A DNA stretch of 64,000 nt from Asticcacaulis endophyticus (GTDB lineage Bacteria > Pseudomonadota > Alphaproteobacteria > Caulobacterales > Caulobacteraceae), in assembly GCF_014652575.1 (NCBI RefSeq), contig NZ_BMZB01000003.1, positions 124,001-188,000 of the forward strand, in the 5' to 3' direction. Below the pieces are notes generated by a model. The model had not been told where the DNA came from. It saw only the letters and a program-made list of their open reading frames with translations, and ran no database searches. The translations under genes and the position numbers were made by a program. Shown one piece after another: positions 24,756-46,055 of the stretch. Position 1 is the first letter of the stretch; every line of letters starts with the position of its first letter.

Positions 24756-24913
24756 TCATTTTCGCCATTGCAAAACAGGCTGATTTTTCAATGAGTAACA
24801 GGAAAATTAGCCCGTTTCGCGAATTAATGGGCGGCTTATAAGCTTAAGAGTTGCCAAAATCCCTTAAGCCGTGTCTTTATAGCACAGTTTTCCGATTCAA
24901 CGGCGATATTACC

Positions 24914-25480
24914 ATGTCAGACCAATCCGCACACGAGCCGACTATGGAGGAAATTCTTGCCTCCATTCGCCGCATCATCTCCGAAGATGATGCGCCTGAA
25001 GAGGCGGCTGAGGCACCGGCCGAAGTGGCGGTTGCTGAACCGGAACCTGCGCCTGAACCGGAGCCGGAACCGATGGCAGCGTTTGAAGAAGACGAGCCTG
25101 AAGATGACGTTCTGGAACTGACCGAGCCTTATGTGGCCGCACCGGTGGCGTCGATTGGTGATCTGGATGCCTATGAACCGGTGGCGGCCGTGGCGCCCCC
25201 TGCGCCTAAGCCTGAACCCAAGCCGGTTTATTCGGCACCGGAACCTGATTTTGGCGCGTCGCGTCTGGTCAGCGACCGGACGGAGAGCACGGCGGCGAAT
25301 GCCTTTGGTGCCCTGACCAATGCCTTGCTGGTGCCGAAAGACGGTCGCACCTTAGAGGACGTCCTTAAAGAACTGATGCGGCCTATGCTTCAGGACTGGC
25401 TGGATAAAAATCTGGCCACTATTGTTGAAGAACAAGTCCGCCTTGAAGTCGAGCGTATCGCACGCCAAGCTAGGCGTTAG
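24914..25480 (+). CDS. popZ: Polar organizing protein PopZ
   Basis: PopZ self-assembles into a polar network that anchors ParB-bound centromeres and recruits pole-specific regulators in Caulobacter-like cells. The 188-residue protein has the N-terminal helix EPTMEEILASIRRIISEDD, which binds client proteins. A long acidic proline-rich linker follows (many PE and EP pairs, from about residue 28 to 120). The conserved C-terminal helices are LVSDRTESTAANAFGALTNA and LEDVLKELMRPMLQDWLDKN, needed for oligomerisation. The ATG at 24914 is preferred over an upstream in-frame start. The order popZ-valS matches C. crescentus. Confidence 0.92.
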   Translation: MSDQSAHEPTMEEILASIRRIISEDDAPEEAAEAPAEVAVAEPEPAPEPEPEPMAAFEEDEPEDDVLELTEPYVAAPVASIGDLDAYEPVAAVAPPAPKPEPKPVYSAPEPDFGASRLVSDRTESTAANAFGALTNALLVPKDGRTLEDVLKELMRPMLQDWLDKNLATIVEEQVRLEVERIARQARR

Positions 25481-25574
25481 ATTTTTTTTAACGCGCATTT
25501 TATCCGAAAACCGCTTCACACTTTTCGGCATGCGCTCTAAGCCCTTCCGCTTCACCACAAATGGTTATAGAGAG

Positions 25575-25608
25575 AACGGCGTCCATTGCGGGCGCCGTTT
25601 TTGTTTTC
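25575..25608 (+). terminator. Rho-independent terminator between popZ and valS
   Basis: A 10-bp stem (AACGGCGTCC at 25575-25584 with GGGCGCCGTT at 25590-25599, one G-T wobble) is followed by a T-rich stretch. Only 31 bases separate its T run from the valS ATG, so it could also act as an attenuator in the valS leader. Confidence 0.8.
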
Positions 25609-25638
25609 CCTTCCTGTTTTTATTGTCAAAGCCTGAGC

Positions 25639-28461
25639 ATGTTAGAAAAGACTTTCGATCCGAAATCCGTTGAACCGCGCCTTTATGAGATGTGGGAAAC
25701 GTCCGGTGCCTTTAAGCCGACTGACAAAGAAGGGGCTGAGAGCTTTTCGATTGTGATACCGCCGCCCAATGTGACGGGATCGCTGCACATCGGCCATGCG
25801 CTGAATAATACGCTTCAGGACGTGCTGATCCGCTTTGAGCGGATGCGCGGGAAGGCAGCTTTGTGGCTGCCGGGGACGGATCACGCCGGTATTGCCACTC
25901 AGATGGTGGTTGAGCGTCAACTGGCGGCTGCGGGGCAGCAATCGCGCCGGGATATGGGCCGTGAGGCCTTTGTGCAAAAGGTATGGGACTGGAAAGCCGA
26001 ATCGGGCGGGACGATTGTCGGTCAGTTGCGTCGTCTGGGCGCATCCTGCGATTGGTCGCGGGAGCGCTTTACGCTCGATGAGGGCCTCTCCGCCGCGGTG
26101 CGCAAGGTGTTTGTGCAATTGCATAAAGAGGGCCTGATTTACCGCGATAAACGCCTGGTCAACTGGGACCCGTATTTTCAGACGGCGATTTCAGACCTTG
26201 AGGTCGAACAAAAGGAAGTCGATGGGGCCTATTATCACTTCGCCTATCCGCTGGCCGATGGCTTGACGTATCAGCATCCGGTCAAGGATGAAGAGGGCAA
26301 TGAGACCTTTGAGACGCGCGACTATATCGTTGTGGCGACCACCCGCCCTGAAACCATGCTGGGTGATACGGCGGTGGCCGTGCATCCGGATGATGAGCGC
26401 TATAAGGGCTTAGTCGGCAAAGAGGTCGTTCTACCGATCGTTGGTCGGCGTATCCCGATTGTGGCCGACGAATACGCTGATCCGGCCAAGGGTTCCGGTG
26501 CTGTTAAGATCACGCCCGCCCATGATTTTAACGACTTTCAGGTCGGCAAGCGCCACAACCTTCAGTCTTTAAGCATTTTAGATGGTGAAGCTCGGATTGT
26601 TCCAAGCTACTTTAATGCGCCTGAGTATAAAGATATCCCTGATAATCTGCGAGGTTTAGATCGTTTCGCGGCGCGTAAAGCTATCATCGCTGAGATGGAA
26701 AATCTGGGGCTACTGAAAGAGATCGAAAAGACCCGTCATATGGTGCCGCATGGTGACCGTTCCGGAGTAGTGATTGAGCCTTATCTGACCGATCAGTGGT
26801 ACGTCAATGCCGGTGAATTGGCTAAAGACGCGCTTGCGGCTGTCGAAGATGGTCGCACGGTTTTTGAGCCTAAGAACTGGGAGAAGACCTATTTTGAGTG
26901 GCTGAAAAACATTGAGCCGTGGTGTGTCTCGCGTCAGCTTTGGTGGGGGCACCGTATTCCTGCGTGGTTCGGCCCGCCTCTTGAAGCTGATAATCCGGAC
27001 AGATTTGCAGGCAAAATATTTGTAGGCGAGGATCAAGACGAGATTTTAAAACAAGCAAAAGACTACTATGGAAATATTCCAATTTCTTTTGGCAATACAT
27101 TTACTGCATTCAGGCAAAATGGAGTGATTACGGCTGTTGAGCTTCGTCAGGACGAAGATGTTCTCGACACTTGGTTCTCGTCAGCACTGTGGCCATTTTC
27201 GACGATGGGGTGGCCTGAGCAGACCAAAGACCTGGAGCGCTTTTATCCGACCCATACCCTGATTACCGGCTTTGATATCATCTTCTTCTGGGTCGCCCGG
27301 ATGATGATGATGGGCTTGCATTTTACCGGGAAGGCCCCGTTTGAGCGGGTCTTTATCAATGCGCTGGTCCGCGATGACAAGGGTCAGAAAATGTCCAAGT
27401 CCAAGGGCAATGTTATGGACCCGCTGGTGCTGATTGATGAATTCGGCGCCGATGCCTTGCGTTTCACCATGACCGCCATGTCAGGGCAGGGGCGTGATAT
27501 TAAGCTGGCCAAACAGCGCATCGAAGGCTACCGTAACTTTGGCACCAAGCTATGGAATGCCGCGCGCTTCGCTCAGATGAACGAATGCGCCCATGTCGAA
27601 GATTTTGATCCGGCGAACGTAAAATTGACTCTTAGCCGCTGGATACGCGGTGAGGTTCAAAAGACGGTGCAGGCGGTGACCACAGCATTAGAGGCCTGCG
27701 CGTTTGATGATGCAGCATCGGCGCTCTATAAATTTGTCTGGAACGTGGTCTGCGATTGGTATCTGGAACTGGCGAAACCGATCCTGAACGGCGATGATGA
27801 GGCCGCTAAGGCCGAAATCCGCGCCACGACGGCATGGGTTCTGGATCAGTGCCTGATCCTGCTGCATCCGGTCATGCCGTTCATCACCGAAGAACTGTGG
27901 GATAAGACCGCTAACGGCGCACGTCCGAACCACCTGATTGTTCAGACATGGCCTGAGTTTAAGGGCGACTGGATTGATGCGTCGGCTGATGACGAAATTA
28001 ACTGGCTGATCGACCTGATTTCCGAGGTTCGCTCCATCCGTTCGGAAATGAATGTGCCCGGATCGGCCCGCGCGCCATTAAGCTTAACCGGCGCATCCAG
28101 CGTAACCAAGGCTCGCCTTGAAACCCACCGTGATTTGATACTGTTCTTAGGGCGGTTGTCGGAGGTTTCGGTGTCGGAAACGGCTCAGGCGGGGTCTGTA
28201 CCGTTCGTCAGCGCCGAAGCCACCGCCCATCTGGCGATTGCCGAGTTCATCGATCTCAAGGCCGAGGAAGCGCGCCTGTTGAAAGACATTGCCGCCTTTG
28301 ACAAGTCGATCGACGGCACGCGCCGTAAACTTGATAATCCCGAATTTGTCAAAAAAGCCCCGGAAGAGGTGATCGAAGAAAACCGCGAACGCTTAGCCGA
28401 GGCCGAAGGTGGTAAAGCCAAGCTGGCGGCCGCCCTAGAGCGGCTCAAGGCCGCCCTGTAA
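25639..28461 (+). CDS. valS: Valyl-tRNA synthetase
   Basis: ValS charges tRNA-Val and edits mischarged threonine. The 941-residue class I enzyme has PPPNVTGSLHIGHALN (HIGH motif), the CP1 editing domain with TTRPETMLGDTAVAVHPDD and GSGAVKITPAHDFND, KMSKSKGNVMDP (KMSKS loop) and a C-terminal coiled coil (ALKAAEEARLLKD-like, ending LAEAEGGKAKLAAALERLKAAL). The ATG at 25639 is chosen because MLEKTFDP is the usual start; the frame continues 26 codons upstream through the terminator hairpin. The 3' end overlaps the convergent GT87-like gene by 27 bp. Confidence 0.97.
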   Translation: MLEKTFDPKSVEPRLYEMWETSGAFKPTDKEGAESFSIVIPPPNVTGSLHIGHALNNTLQDVLIRFERMRGKAALWLPGTDHAGIATQMVVERQLAAAGQQSRRDMGREAFVQKVWDWKAESGGTIVGQLRRLGASCDWSRERFTLDEGLSAAVRKVFVQLHKEGLIYRDKRLVNWDPYFQTAISDLEVEQKEVDGAYYHFAYPLADGLTYQHPVKDEEGNETFETRDYIVVATTRPETMLGDTAVAVHPDDERYKGLVGKEVVLPIVGRRIPIVADEYADPAKGSGAVKITPAHDFNDFQVGKRHNLQSLSILDGEARIVPSYFNAPEYKDIPDNLRGLDRFAARKAIIAEMENLGLLKEIEKTRHMVPHGDRSGVVIEPYLTDQWYVNAGELAKDALAAVEDGRTVFEPKNWEKTYFEWLKNIEPWCVSRQLWWGHRIPAWFGPPLEADNPDRFAGKIFVGEDQDEILKQAKDYYGNIPISFGNTFTAFRQNGVITAVELRQDEDVLDTWFSSALWPFSTMGWPEQTKDLERFYPTHTLITGFDIIFFWVARMMMMGLHFTGKAPFERVFINALVRDDKGQKMSKSKGNVMDPLVLIDEFGADALRFTMTAMSGQGRDIKLAKQRIEGYRNFGTKLWNAARFAQMNECAHVEDFDPANVKLTLSRWIRGEVQKTVQAVTTALEACAFDDAASALYKFVWNVVCDWYLELAKPILNGDDEAAKAEIRATTAWVLDQCLILLHPVMPFITEELWDKTANGARPNHLIVQTWPEFKGDWIDASADDEINWLIDLISEVRSIRSEMNVPGSARAPLSLTGASSVTKARLETHRDLILFLGRLSEVSVSETAQAGSVPFVSAEATAHLAIAEFIDLKAEEARLLKDIAAFDKSIDGTRRKLDNPEFVKKAPEEVIEENRERLAEAEGGKAKLAAALERLKAAL

Positions 28462-43810: not shown

Positions 43811-44584
43811 ATGGGGTGGTTAAGTCCGAGTATGTCCAATCACAATAAAAACAGACGGCTGGACAAAAGCCTAGAGACTGAAAAAGGTTGGTCACTACCG
43901 TTTTTCCGTAAGCGGGCGGCTATCTATTACGATGGGTTCAACCTCTATCACGCGGTTGATGCCTATAAACGACCCTACCTGAAATGGTTAGACCTTAAGG
44001 CGTTGGGGCGAGCGTTGGCCCCGGCTGATGAAGTCGTTAAGCGCGTGGTGTGGTGTTCAGCCTTTCGTCCGCAGTCGAAAACCAAGATGAAGCGGCACGA
44101 TGACTATATGCAGGCCCTTAAAGCCCGCGGAGTCGTGGCGCGCATGGGGCATTTTGTGTCGGCGCTGGATGGCTGTAATTCTTGCGGGCACACCTGGCAC
44201 CTGTCGATTGAGAAGCAGGGCGATGTCAATCTGGCGCTGTCGATAGCTGCGGATGCCGAGGATAATCTGTTTGATGTCTGCTATCTAGTCACCGCCGATG
44301 GTGACCATGCGGCTACGGCGCGCTACCTCAAAGAGCGCTTTCCTAAAAAGAAGCTGGTACTGGTCTCACCGCCTGGGCGTTTTCCCAATAAACACATATT
44401 ATTATACGCTGACGCTCATATCGAAATTGAGCGGGAGCATCTGGAAGCCTCATTACTGCCGCAGGCTGTGCGTCATAAAAAGAAGCTTTTGGTGCCGCCC
44501 AAGGTGATTGAAAGACCCGAAGCCTATGACCCGCCAGAATTGCGCGAAAAAGGTCACCTTAAAATGATCGTCAACAACGGCTAA
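43811..44584 (+). CDS. NYN (PIN-like) domain protein
   Basis: This protein of up to 257 residues has the NYN ribonuclease-like fold. It shows RAAIYYDGFNLYHAVDAY with the first acidic residue, KQGDVNLALSIAADA and VCYLVTADGDHAATARYL with the remaining acidic residues that would hold the metal. An insertion, DGCNSCGHTWHLS, has a CxxC-x-H arrangement that could bind zinc. A C-terminal basic and charged tail follows. RNase activity is likely by family, and the target is unknown. An alternative ATG is at 43832. It ends 49 bp before the glycine riboswitch. Confidence 0.82.
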   Translation: MGWLSPSMSNHNKNRRLDKSLETEKGWSLPFFRKRAAIYYDGFNLYHAVDAYKRPYLKWLDLKALGRALAPADEVVKRVVWCSAFRPQSKTKMKRHDDYMQALKARGVVARMGHFVSALDGCNSCGHTWHLSIEKQGDVNLALSIAADAEDNLFDVCYLVTADGDHAATARYLKERFPKKKLVLVSPPGRFPNKHILLYADAHIEIEREHLEASLLPQAVRHKKKLLVPPKVIERPEAYDPPELREKGHLKMIVNNG

Positions 44585-44632
44585 GTTTGCTTGACTCTTT
44601 ACGGTGCATATCGCACAAGCGAGATATATCAT

Positions 44633-44866
44633 GCGGGAGAGATTGCGGGGTGACTCGCAACGCCGAAGGCGCAACCGCCCCGGAAACGCTCAGGCACAAT
44701 GGACCGCACGATATGCTAAACGCTGGAAAGTGATCGTCTGAGCATTTTGCGAAAAAGTGGATACCGGTTTTTCGCTTAAAAATGCGCCACTACTTTTGAC
44801 GATCCGCCGAAGGAGCAAGGTCTTTAAATCTTAAAGGCTGAAATCTCTCAGGTTCAATGGACAGCG
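44633..44866 (+). ncRNA. Tandem glycine riboswitch (aptamers I and II)
   Basis: The leader of gcvT contains two glycine aptamers. Aptamer I runs 44633-44707, with GGGAGAG, ACGCCGAAGGCGCAA and CTCAGGCACAATGGACCGC. Aptamer II runs 44721-44866, with CGCTGGAAAG at its 5' side, CGCCGAAGGAGCAAGG, and CTCTCAGGTTCAATGGACAGCG closing P1 (CGCTG 44721-44725 with CAGCG 44862-44866). Glycine binding normally switches on the gcv operon. In aptamer II the 7-bp stem GATCGTC/GACGATC (44732-44738 with 44798-44804) is opened by a 59-nt palindromic insert, which is highly unusual for this RNA. The hairpin CAGAAC/GTTCTG at 44871-44890 may be part of the expression platform. Confidence 0.9.
44739..44797. repeat. 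59-nt palindromic insert in aptamer II of the glycine riboswitch
   Basis: The insert folds as GCATTTT-GCGAAAAA (44742-44756), loop GTGGATACCGG, TTTTTCGC (44768-44775), TTA bulge, AAAATGC (44779-44785), a 15-bp stem. The core with GCGAAAAAGTGG and ACCGGTTTTTCGC resembles the short palindromic intergenic repeats spread through alphaproteobacterial genomes. No second copy is seen in this window. Confidence 0.7.
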
Positions 44867-44927
44867 GGGGCAGAACTATGCATCGTTCTGTGATCCCGCA
44901 TTCGCGCCTGTTGACCGAGGTTTGCTC

Positions 44928-46055
44928 ATGACTGACGCCCCAAACACTGAGACCCTGAAATATACCCGTCTTTATCAGCGCCATGTCGATCTTGGCGCGC
45001 GTATGGTGCCGTTTGCCGGTTATGCCATGCCGGTGCAGTATGACGGCGTGCTGGGTGAACACAAATGGACACGCGCCGAATGCGGCTTGTTCGATGTGTC
45101 GCACATGGGGCAGGCCCGTTTGAAGGGTAAGGACGCGATTGCCACGCTTGAGGCGCTCACGCCCACCGATTTCAAGGTATTAAAAGCTGGCCGCCAAAAA
45201 TATTCCCTGCTGCTCAATGATAATTCAGGCATTCTTGACGACCTGATGGTGTCGCGCCCGGAAACTGACGGCCTATTTTTGGTCGTCAATGCGGGCTGTA
45301 AGGATCAGGATTTTGCCTATATCGGCCGAAACCTTAAGGGCGATACGTCACTGGAGATCTTGAGCGACCGTGCCCTGCTGGCCTTGCAAGGCCCCAAAGC
45401 CAAAGAGGTTATGGCTAAGGTCATTCCGGCGGCGTGCGAAATGTACTTCATGGATTGTGGCACCTTCACCTGGCAGGGACATACGGTTTACGTTTCCCGC
45501 TCCGGCTATACCGGCGAAGATGGTTTTGAAATTTCAGTTCATGAAAATCAGGTGGCGGAACTGTGGGATGCTTTGCTGTCTGATCCGGTTGTAAAGCCGA
45601 TCGGTCTTGGTGCGCGCGACAGTTTACGCCTGGAGGCCGGTATGCCGCTCTATGGCCACGAAATGGATACGGGCTATAGTCTGGCTGAGGCTAATCTCGG
45701 TTTTGCCATGTCAAAATCACGCTTGGAGGCCGGTGATATTCTTGGCTTTGACCGCCTGAAACCTGAGCTTGACGGTGGTTTGACGCGCGTGCGCGTGGCC
45801 TTGAAAGGTGAGGCGGGCCCGCCCGCACGCGAAGGGGCCAAGATCCTCACTGAGGCTGGCGAAGAGATTGGCTATATTACCTCTGGCGGGCCGTCTCCGT
45901 CAGCAGGCGGTCTGATCGCCCTGGGTTACGTGCCGCCAGCTTTTTCTGAGGTCGGGACTAACCTGACGTGGGATGTGCGCGGTAAGGCCTATCCATGTAC
46001 CGTAGTTGCCTTGCCGTTTGTCAAAAATGGCTATCACCGTAAAAAATCAGCTTAA
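44928..46055 (+). CDS. gcvT: Glycine cleavage system T protein (aminomethyltransferase)
   Basis: GcvT releases ammonia from the aminomethyl-lipoyl intermediate and forms methylene-THF. The 375-residue protein has [50 protein letters not shown] and the conserved [19 protein letters not shown], which carries the catalytic-site residues. The ATG at 44928, with GAGG upstream, is preferred over the TTG two codons before. It is the first gene of the riboswitch-controlled gcv operon. Confidence 0.97.

Follow-up and report, generated by a model that had tools for sequence, protein, structure and literature searches.

The tandem glycine riboswitch that precedes gcvT in one clade of Asticcacaulis carries, in the P2 arm of its second aptamer, a captured mobile hairpin, and is in this respect a new form of a known riboswitch. 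We consider it highly probable that a mobile repeat was captured in this peripheral arm and is tolerated there, with the ligand core kept. Here a repeat is lodged within a ligand-binding RNA; the genomes with and without it are placed on a tree, and sister species offer the form that lacks it. Nature thus provides a paired comparison for the question of how much longer a riboswitch arm may become before binding, cooperativity or switching changes, and the case bears on whether mobile hairpins provide raw material for RNA regulators. Positions below refer to the window, the 64,000-nt stretch of DNA that was analysed. The genome it comes from (3.95 Mb) is labelled G000; the other genomes of the genus are G-numbered and their loci L-numbered.

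Position and predicted fold of the insert

The leader comprises 343 nt between the end of an ORF at 44584 and the gcvT ATG at 44928, and its tandem riboswitch sits before the glycine cleavage genes, gcvT being the first of them (Table 1). The gene is named after its presumed family, and the ORFs that follow are presumably gcvH, gcvPA and gcvPB. Aptamer I scores above the Rfam RF00504 threshold (65.5 versus 32 bits). Aptamer II (44721-44866) has the P1, P2 and P3 pairs and the invariant core columns common to insert-free relatives. A sequence-only reading of this DNA had proposed that aptamer II has an intact P1 and that its next stem is split by 59 nt, and the sequence bears out both statements. 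The opened stem, however, is not P3, as that reading had it, but P2, the first hairpin after P1; P3 is intact. The 59 nt do form the 15-bp hairpin of their own that had been described, built from 7 bp and 8 bp with a 3-nt bulge on the 3' side. This hairpin has 3 additional apical bp, and the insert folds alone.

Table 1. Features of the gcvT leader in window coordinates.
Feature	Position	Strand	Basis
Glycine aptamer I, ordinary	44624-44716	+	Rfam RF00504, 65.5 bits, E 8.9e-13
Aptamer II P1, 5' strand CGCTG	44721-44725	+	Sequence; no variation in 19 aligned rows
Aptamer II P2, 5' strand GATCGTC	44732-44738	+	Sequence; equivalent pairs covary in 17 insert-free relatives
59-nt insert in P2 loop: CIR-like repeat arm and short 3' tail	44739-44797	+	Missing in 19/25 genus genomes
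Aptamer II P2, 3' strand GACGATC	44798-44804	+	Sequence; GATGATC in G007 gives a G-U pair
Aptamer II P3, 5' strand (GCCGA..GAG)	44806-44815	+	Pairs in 17/17 insert-free relatives; identical in the five insert genomes
Aptamer II P3b hairpin, variable	44819-44842	+	G007 differs at 12/24 positions
Aptamer II P3, 3' strand CTCTCAGGT	44845-44853	+	Alignment and structure test of relatives
Aptamer II P1, 3' strand CAGCG	44862-44866	+	Sequence; alignment of relatives
Probable expression platform, hairpin GCGGG..CAGAAC / GTTCTG..CCCGC	44864-44899	+	Pair probabilities 0.75-1.0
gcvT (assumed name), gene 1 of the glycine cleavage operon	44928-46055	+	ATG within listed TTG ORF 44922-46055; GcvT relatives matched

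The region 44715-44872 folds with a z-score of -3.14, with 2 of 200 shuffles equally stable, and the 27-nt core pattern occurs once in the window and in none of 100 shuffles. The final TTTT of the insert may be the old P2 loop. A search for a clean direct repeat at the ends of the insert found none, and because no clear direct repeat flanks this copy, its exact ends are uncertain.

Swapping the insert for a 4-nt loop in silico leaves the minimum-energy fold unaltered except in the P2 arm. The hairpin at 44864-44899, which overlaps the 3' strand of P1 and which on the basis of the predicted fold is probably the expression platform, forms with and without the insert. The P1 helix of aptamer II is mostly open in ligand-free folds (probability 0.02-0.03), again with or without the insert. 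When the leader is folded from 44621, the insert lowers the pair probabilities of P2 from 0.89-1.0 to 0.55-0.62, while a fold started at 44600 with the insert present gives 0.77-0.90.

Folding with the Rfam glycine covariance model, a check proposed in the sequence-only reading, reported aptamer I and missed aptamer II. This miss is no sign of the insert, because in six loci of insert-free relatives where aptamer I was found, Rfam saw aptamer II once (E up to 0.5) and missed it in the other five; as a test of aptamer II, Rfam was accordingly set aside as uninformative. Our own aptamer II model, R1, scores the aptamer II of the window at 53.4 bits, but with a P1 register that lies inside the insert: even unfiltered, it puts the 5' strand of P1 at CGCTTAAAAATG, position 44773, and not at 44721. 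We take this shift to be the model's cost for a long insertion; an alternative register is also possible. Since R1 fails to bridge the 59-nt insert, its spans say nothing about long inserts, and we rejected them as a measure of insertion in an order-level search that matched 383 of 398 genomes (spans taken from among the matches listed). The repeat's CGCTTAAAAATG (44773-44784) is similar enough to the aptamer's own P1/J1-2 start, CGCTGGAAAGTG, to draw the aptamer model.

A dispersed and mobile repeat family

The insert belongs to a family of palindromic repeats that is dispersed and mobile. Over 50 nt it matches two other places in the window genome, at 96% (E 1.9e-16) and 88% (E 5.0e-11). R2, a covariance model of the repeat arm made from 13 other genus copies with the riboswitch copy excluded, matches the insert at 44738-44791 with 67.7 bits, and 10 of the 18 pairs of the arm change on both sides among the model copies, a number that none of 500 shuffles reached. 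With E up to 0.01 and 150 candidates scored per genome, R2 gives 61 matches in the window genome; across the 25 Asticcacaulis genomes, insert-free ones included, the count per genome is 15-139. The whole-genome search proposed in the sequence-only reading thus does return other copies.

That reading had also thought the palindrome likely to be mobile, and two sister copies, each with an occupied and an empty site among close relatives, bear this out. Copy C7:76745, a two-arm element of 108 bp, is present in G000, G013, G020 and G007 and absent from G017, where the empty site reads AAAATCGATGGC; in the filled site the 6-nt ATCGAT stands on both sides of TCTAGAGC...GCTCTAGC, versus a single ATCGAT in the empty one. 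Copy C3:105723, a single arm of about 62 bp, occurs in G000, G013 and G020 but in neither G017 nor G007, and inspection of its flanks found no clean direct repeat. It is this one-arm form that the riboswitch insert resembles.

The family (L171-L190, L036) includes copies with one arm and copies with two; some have AGAGC/GCTCT ends, and the arms covary. In a non-random sample of 40 copies (43 rows minus three duplicates of one place, some copies being mutually orthologous), a fold-based count found 15 with a downstream hairpin of at least 12 bp, unrelated hairpins included; this count replaced the 5/40 two-arm copies given by a stricter rule. By eye, 6 of these 15 have AGAGC..GCTC ends and 4 more have degenerate ones. 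GANTC occurs in the second hairpin of 4/40 sampled copies and, by eye, at the loop in three of them (L004, L172 and L189), where the second-arm site reads GATTC. A second family copy in the window, on the reverse strand at 25487-25539 (42.1 bits), belongs to the AAGTGTGAAGCGGTTTT subtype and lies between the ORFs 24851-25480 and 25561-28461.

The likeness to alphaproteobacterial palindromes that had been noted from the sequence holds for a named kind: the repeat resembles CIR, although the riboswitch copy has just one of CIR's two arms. The available portions of two sources describe CIR, in Caulobacter and relatives, as intergenic elements of about 110 bp in which a linker joins two arms and one loop carries GANTC (PMC2229807), and as Caulobacter CcrM-associated intergenic repeats, again intergenic (PMC10969869). 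The family shares with CIR its dispersed, abundant and palindromic character, the two arms and linker of its fuller genus copies (C7, 108 bp) and, in some genus copies, GATTC in the second-arm loop. The riboswitch copy is likewise intergenic, between the upstream ORF and gcvT, as is the copy at 25487-25539. Unlike CIR, the riboswitch copy is one-armed, without the two-arm layout of about 110 bp, has no GANTC between 44732 and 44804, and sits inside a structured regulatory RNA. Since the two arms and GANTC are lacking, and since the comparison with CIR1-4 was by description only, we call the repeat CIR-like rather than CIR. The original CIR paper is reportedly that of Chen and Shapiro (2003). 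Palindromic intergenic repeats of alphaproteobacteria also include RIME, of the Brucella/rhizobia group together with Bru-RS. The Bru-RS elements, given as 103-105 bp in the available part of PMC2267715, are alike in being intergenic palindromic repeats of this class, a likeness drawn from description only. A full-text literature search with the letters of the repeat returned, judged by title, nothing on bacterial repeats.

Distribution among relatives

A search with the leader and the start of gcvT matched all 25 genus genomes, whose loci were then read. The insert is found in five (G000, G013, G020, G017 and G007), and 19 have a short P2. In the remaining genome, G024, neither Rfam nor our own aptamer model recognised an aptamer. 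By eye, its locus (L067) has a platform-like hairpin, GCGGGAGCAGG..CTGTGAGTCCCGC, directly before the ATG at about 1437-1477, which gives the impression of a leader that lost both aptamers by deletion but retained its platform.

Covariation was tested on 17 insert-free rows; of the 19 available, L052 and L056 were dropped as near-duplicates of L051 and L053. All five P2 pairs change on both sides among these relatives, and P2 is therefore a real, sequence-variable stem; 98.8% of its cells pair. For the structure as a whole, none of 500 shuffles reached the observed covariation score, percentage paired or number of cells changed on both sides, while 36/500 and 75/500 reached the counts of pairs and of pair types. 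The insert genomes retain P2, with a single G-C to G-U change in G007.

A gcvT tree of the 25 genus rows plus one outgroup requires a single change for the insert, and the five carriers are split off by a branch with 100/100 support; in this tree the base make-up of the carriers is flagged as unlike the rest, and G024 and the outgroup have long branches. The sequence-only reading had allowed that the long arm might instead be ancestral and conserved across the genus. What the genus has is a short P2 in 19/25 genomes and the insert in one clade.

Beyond the genus, a search for long spacing between aptamers I and II (spacings of 85-115 and exact core motifs only) matched 17 of 390 Caulobacteraceae genomes, five of them the insert genomes. 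The other 12 were dismissed since they start at a different CTCAGG, as read from the first 80 bases printed. The repeat beside a glycine aptamer core was matched in 3 of 385 genomes of the class, one being the window genome; the other two, G582 and G540, look like chance, judged from the matched string. With the leader as query, 51 plasmid records matched and none covered 80%; among the matches listed, it was aptamer I that matched.

Probable capture of the repeat and competing explanations

In the sequence of events that we favour, one CIR-like repeat arm, about 54 of the 59 inserted nt, would have inserted a single time into the P2 loop of aptamer II, in the ancestor shared by the Asticcacaulis machinosus group, and been retained ever since. 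P2 would thereby have lengthened from a hairpin of about 5 bp to an arm of about 70 nt, consisting of a 7-bp P2, an internal loop and the 15-bp repeat hairpin. In the parts of the published record available to us, P1 and P3 of the glycine riboswitch are the conserved helices and P2 is one that varies and is highly dynamic (cryo-EM preprint, PMC12060979); the glycine pocket is located in helix P3 (PMC13104608). Because P2 is thus a variable side arm outside the pocket, the insert should do no more than lengthen it, and the tandem switch before gcvT would keep its ligand core, P1 and expression platform. From the conservation of the sequence we infer that the insertion is tolerated, with glycine presumably still bound and regulation presumably unchanged.

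The repeat arm might instead have been adopted as a working part, stiffening P2 or offering a protein or RNase site and so coming under selection, which we think rather unlikely. The insert does change slowly: the four other carriers differ from the window by 0, 1, 2 and 2 substitutions in 52-59 positions (0-4%), versus 19-25% of gcvT third positions in the same comparisons (Fisher p 7e-6 to 2e-4, all sharing the window genome and ignoring phylogeny), and the P3b hairpin of the same aptamer has changed at 12/24 positions between the window and G007 (L047). However, copy C7, which lies outside any riboswitch, is equally conserved, with 0-1 differences in 108 nt versus 7-10% in its flanks (Fisher p 0.0002-0.004), so the slow change is not riboswitch-specific, proves no role in the riboswitch and may be a property of the repeat. 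For copy C3, two comparisons each give 0/64 differences, without reaching significance (p 0.85 and 0.07). The changes in the insert, moreover, include two uncompensated pair breaks (G017 and G007), and G007 lacks 7 nt of it. By eye, P3b is still hairpin-like in both the window and L047. Between the window and G013 (L044), 338/338 leader positions are identical, while divergence is 8% in gcvT and 7% in the upstream ORF; this identity reflects either strong constraint or recent exchange.

That the insertion damaged aptamer II, leaving a leader that works as a single-aptamer switch or is decaying, strikes us as quite unlikely. The lower P2 pairing in one of the predicted ensembles and the alternative P1 register within the insert would fit such damage, but the 49-position core of aptamer II has no difference in any of the four carrier comparisons, the P1 and P3 pairs are intact, and G007 keeps its P2 pairing through a G-U pair. 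Aptamer I, for its part, has 0, 0, 3 and 3 changes at 93 positions, the threes being in G017 and G007. Hardly credible, finally, is an old P2 that grew in place, its likeness to the repeat being due to chance or to its having been the source of the repeats. Two relatives (L059 and L063) do have somewhat longer P2 arms; yet the repeat is present in all 25 genus genomes, 19 of them with a short P2, and within the limits of the spacing search only the five insert genomes among 390 Caulobacteraceae have this register.

Capture with tolerance remains our preferred reading, to which a further effect might conceivably be added: the insertion could have brought a control piece, the repeat-P2 junction masking the gcvT start codon as long as aptamer II is unfolded and freeing it once glycine locks P2. 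We rate this as very improbable. The junction at 44729-44743 (the 5' strand of P2 with the TGAGC end of the repeat) is complementary to the gcvT start at 44922-44938, TGCTCATGACTGACGCC, and each of the five insert genomes retains this complementarity, at a predicted -14.9 to -15.5 kcal/mol. When the start region was shuffled in a simple way, however, 22 of 1000 shuffles matched it, and a leader stretch at 44647 ties with it. The predicted pairing probability is about 0.09 in the window genome and 0.00 in the four relatives, where other stretches were folded. Pairing of AAACGCTCAG in aptamer I with the insert end CTGAGCATTT was also considered (duplex -18.6 kcal/mol) and was dropped at an ensemble probability of 0.00.

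Set against RF00504, the leader has the expected two aptamers, a conserved P1/P3 core and a place before the glycine cleavage operon, and departs from it in that the P2 of aptamer II bears a 59-nt mobile-repeat hairpin. The open-licence literature searched yielded no previous description of a repeat lying within an aptamer arm of a riboswitch. In Neisseria gonorrhoeae, aptamer 2 of the gcvT riboswitch has a 73-nt P3 loop, so that there too a peripheral arm of a second glycine aptamer holds large additional hairpins, but in P3 rather than P2, and the available part of the source mentions no dispersed repeat (PMC13104608). The nearest published situation that we found, described in the accessible portion of PMC3049150, is that of the trp operon in pneumococcus, where a BOX repeat separates two T-box riboswitches. 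There too a small mobile repeat lies within a tandem riboswitch leader, but BOX stands between two complete switches, whereas here the repeat is within the arm of one aptamer.
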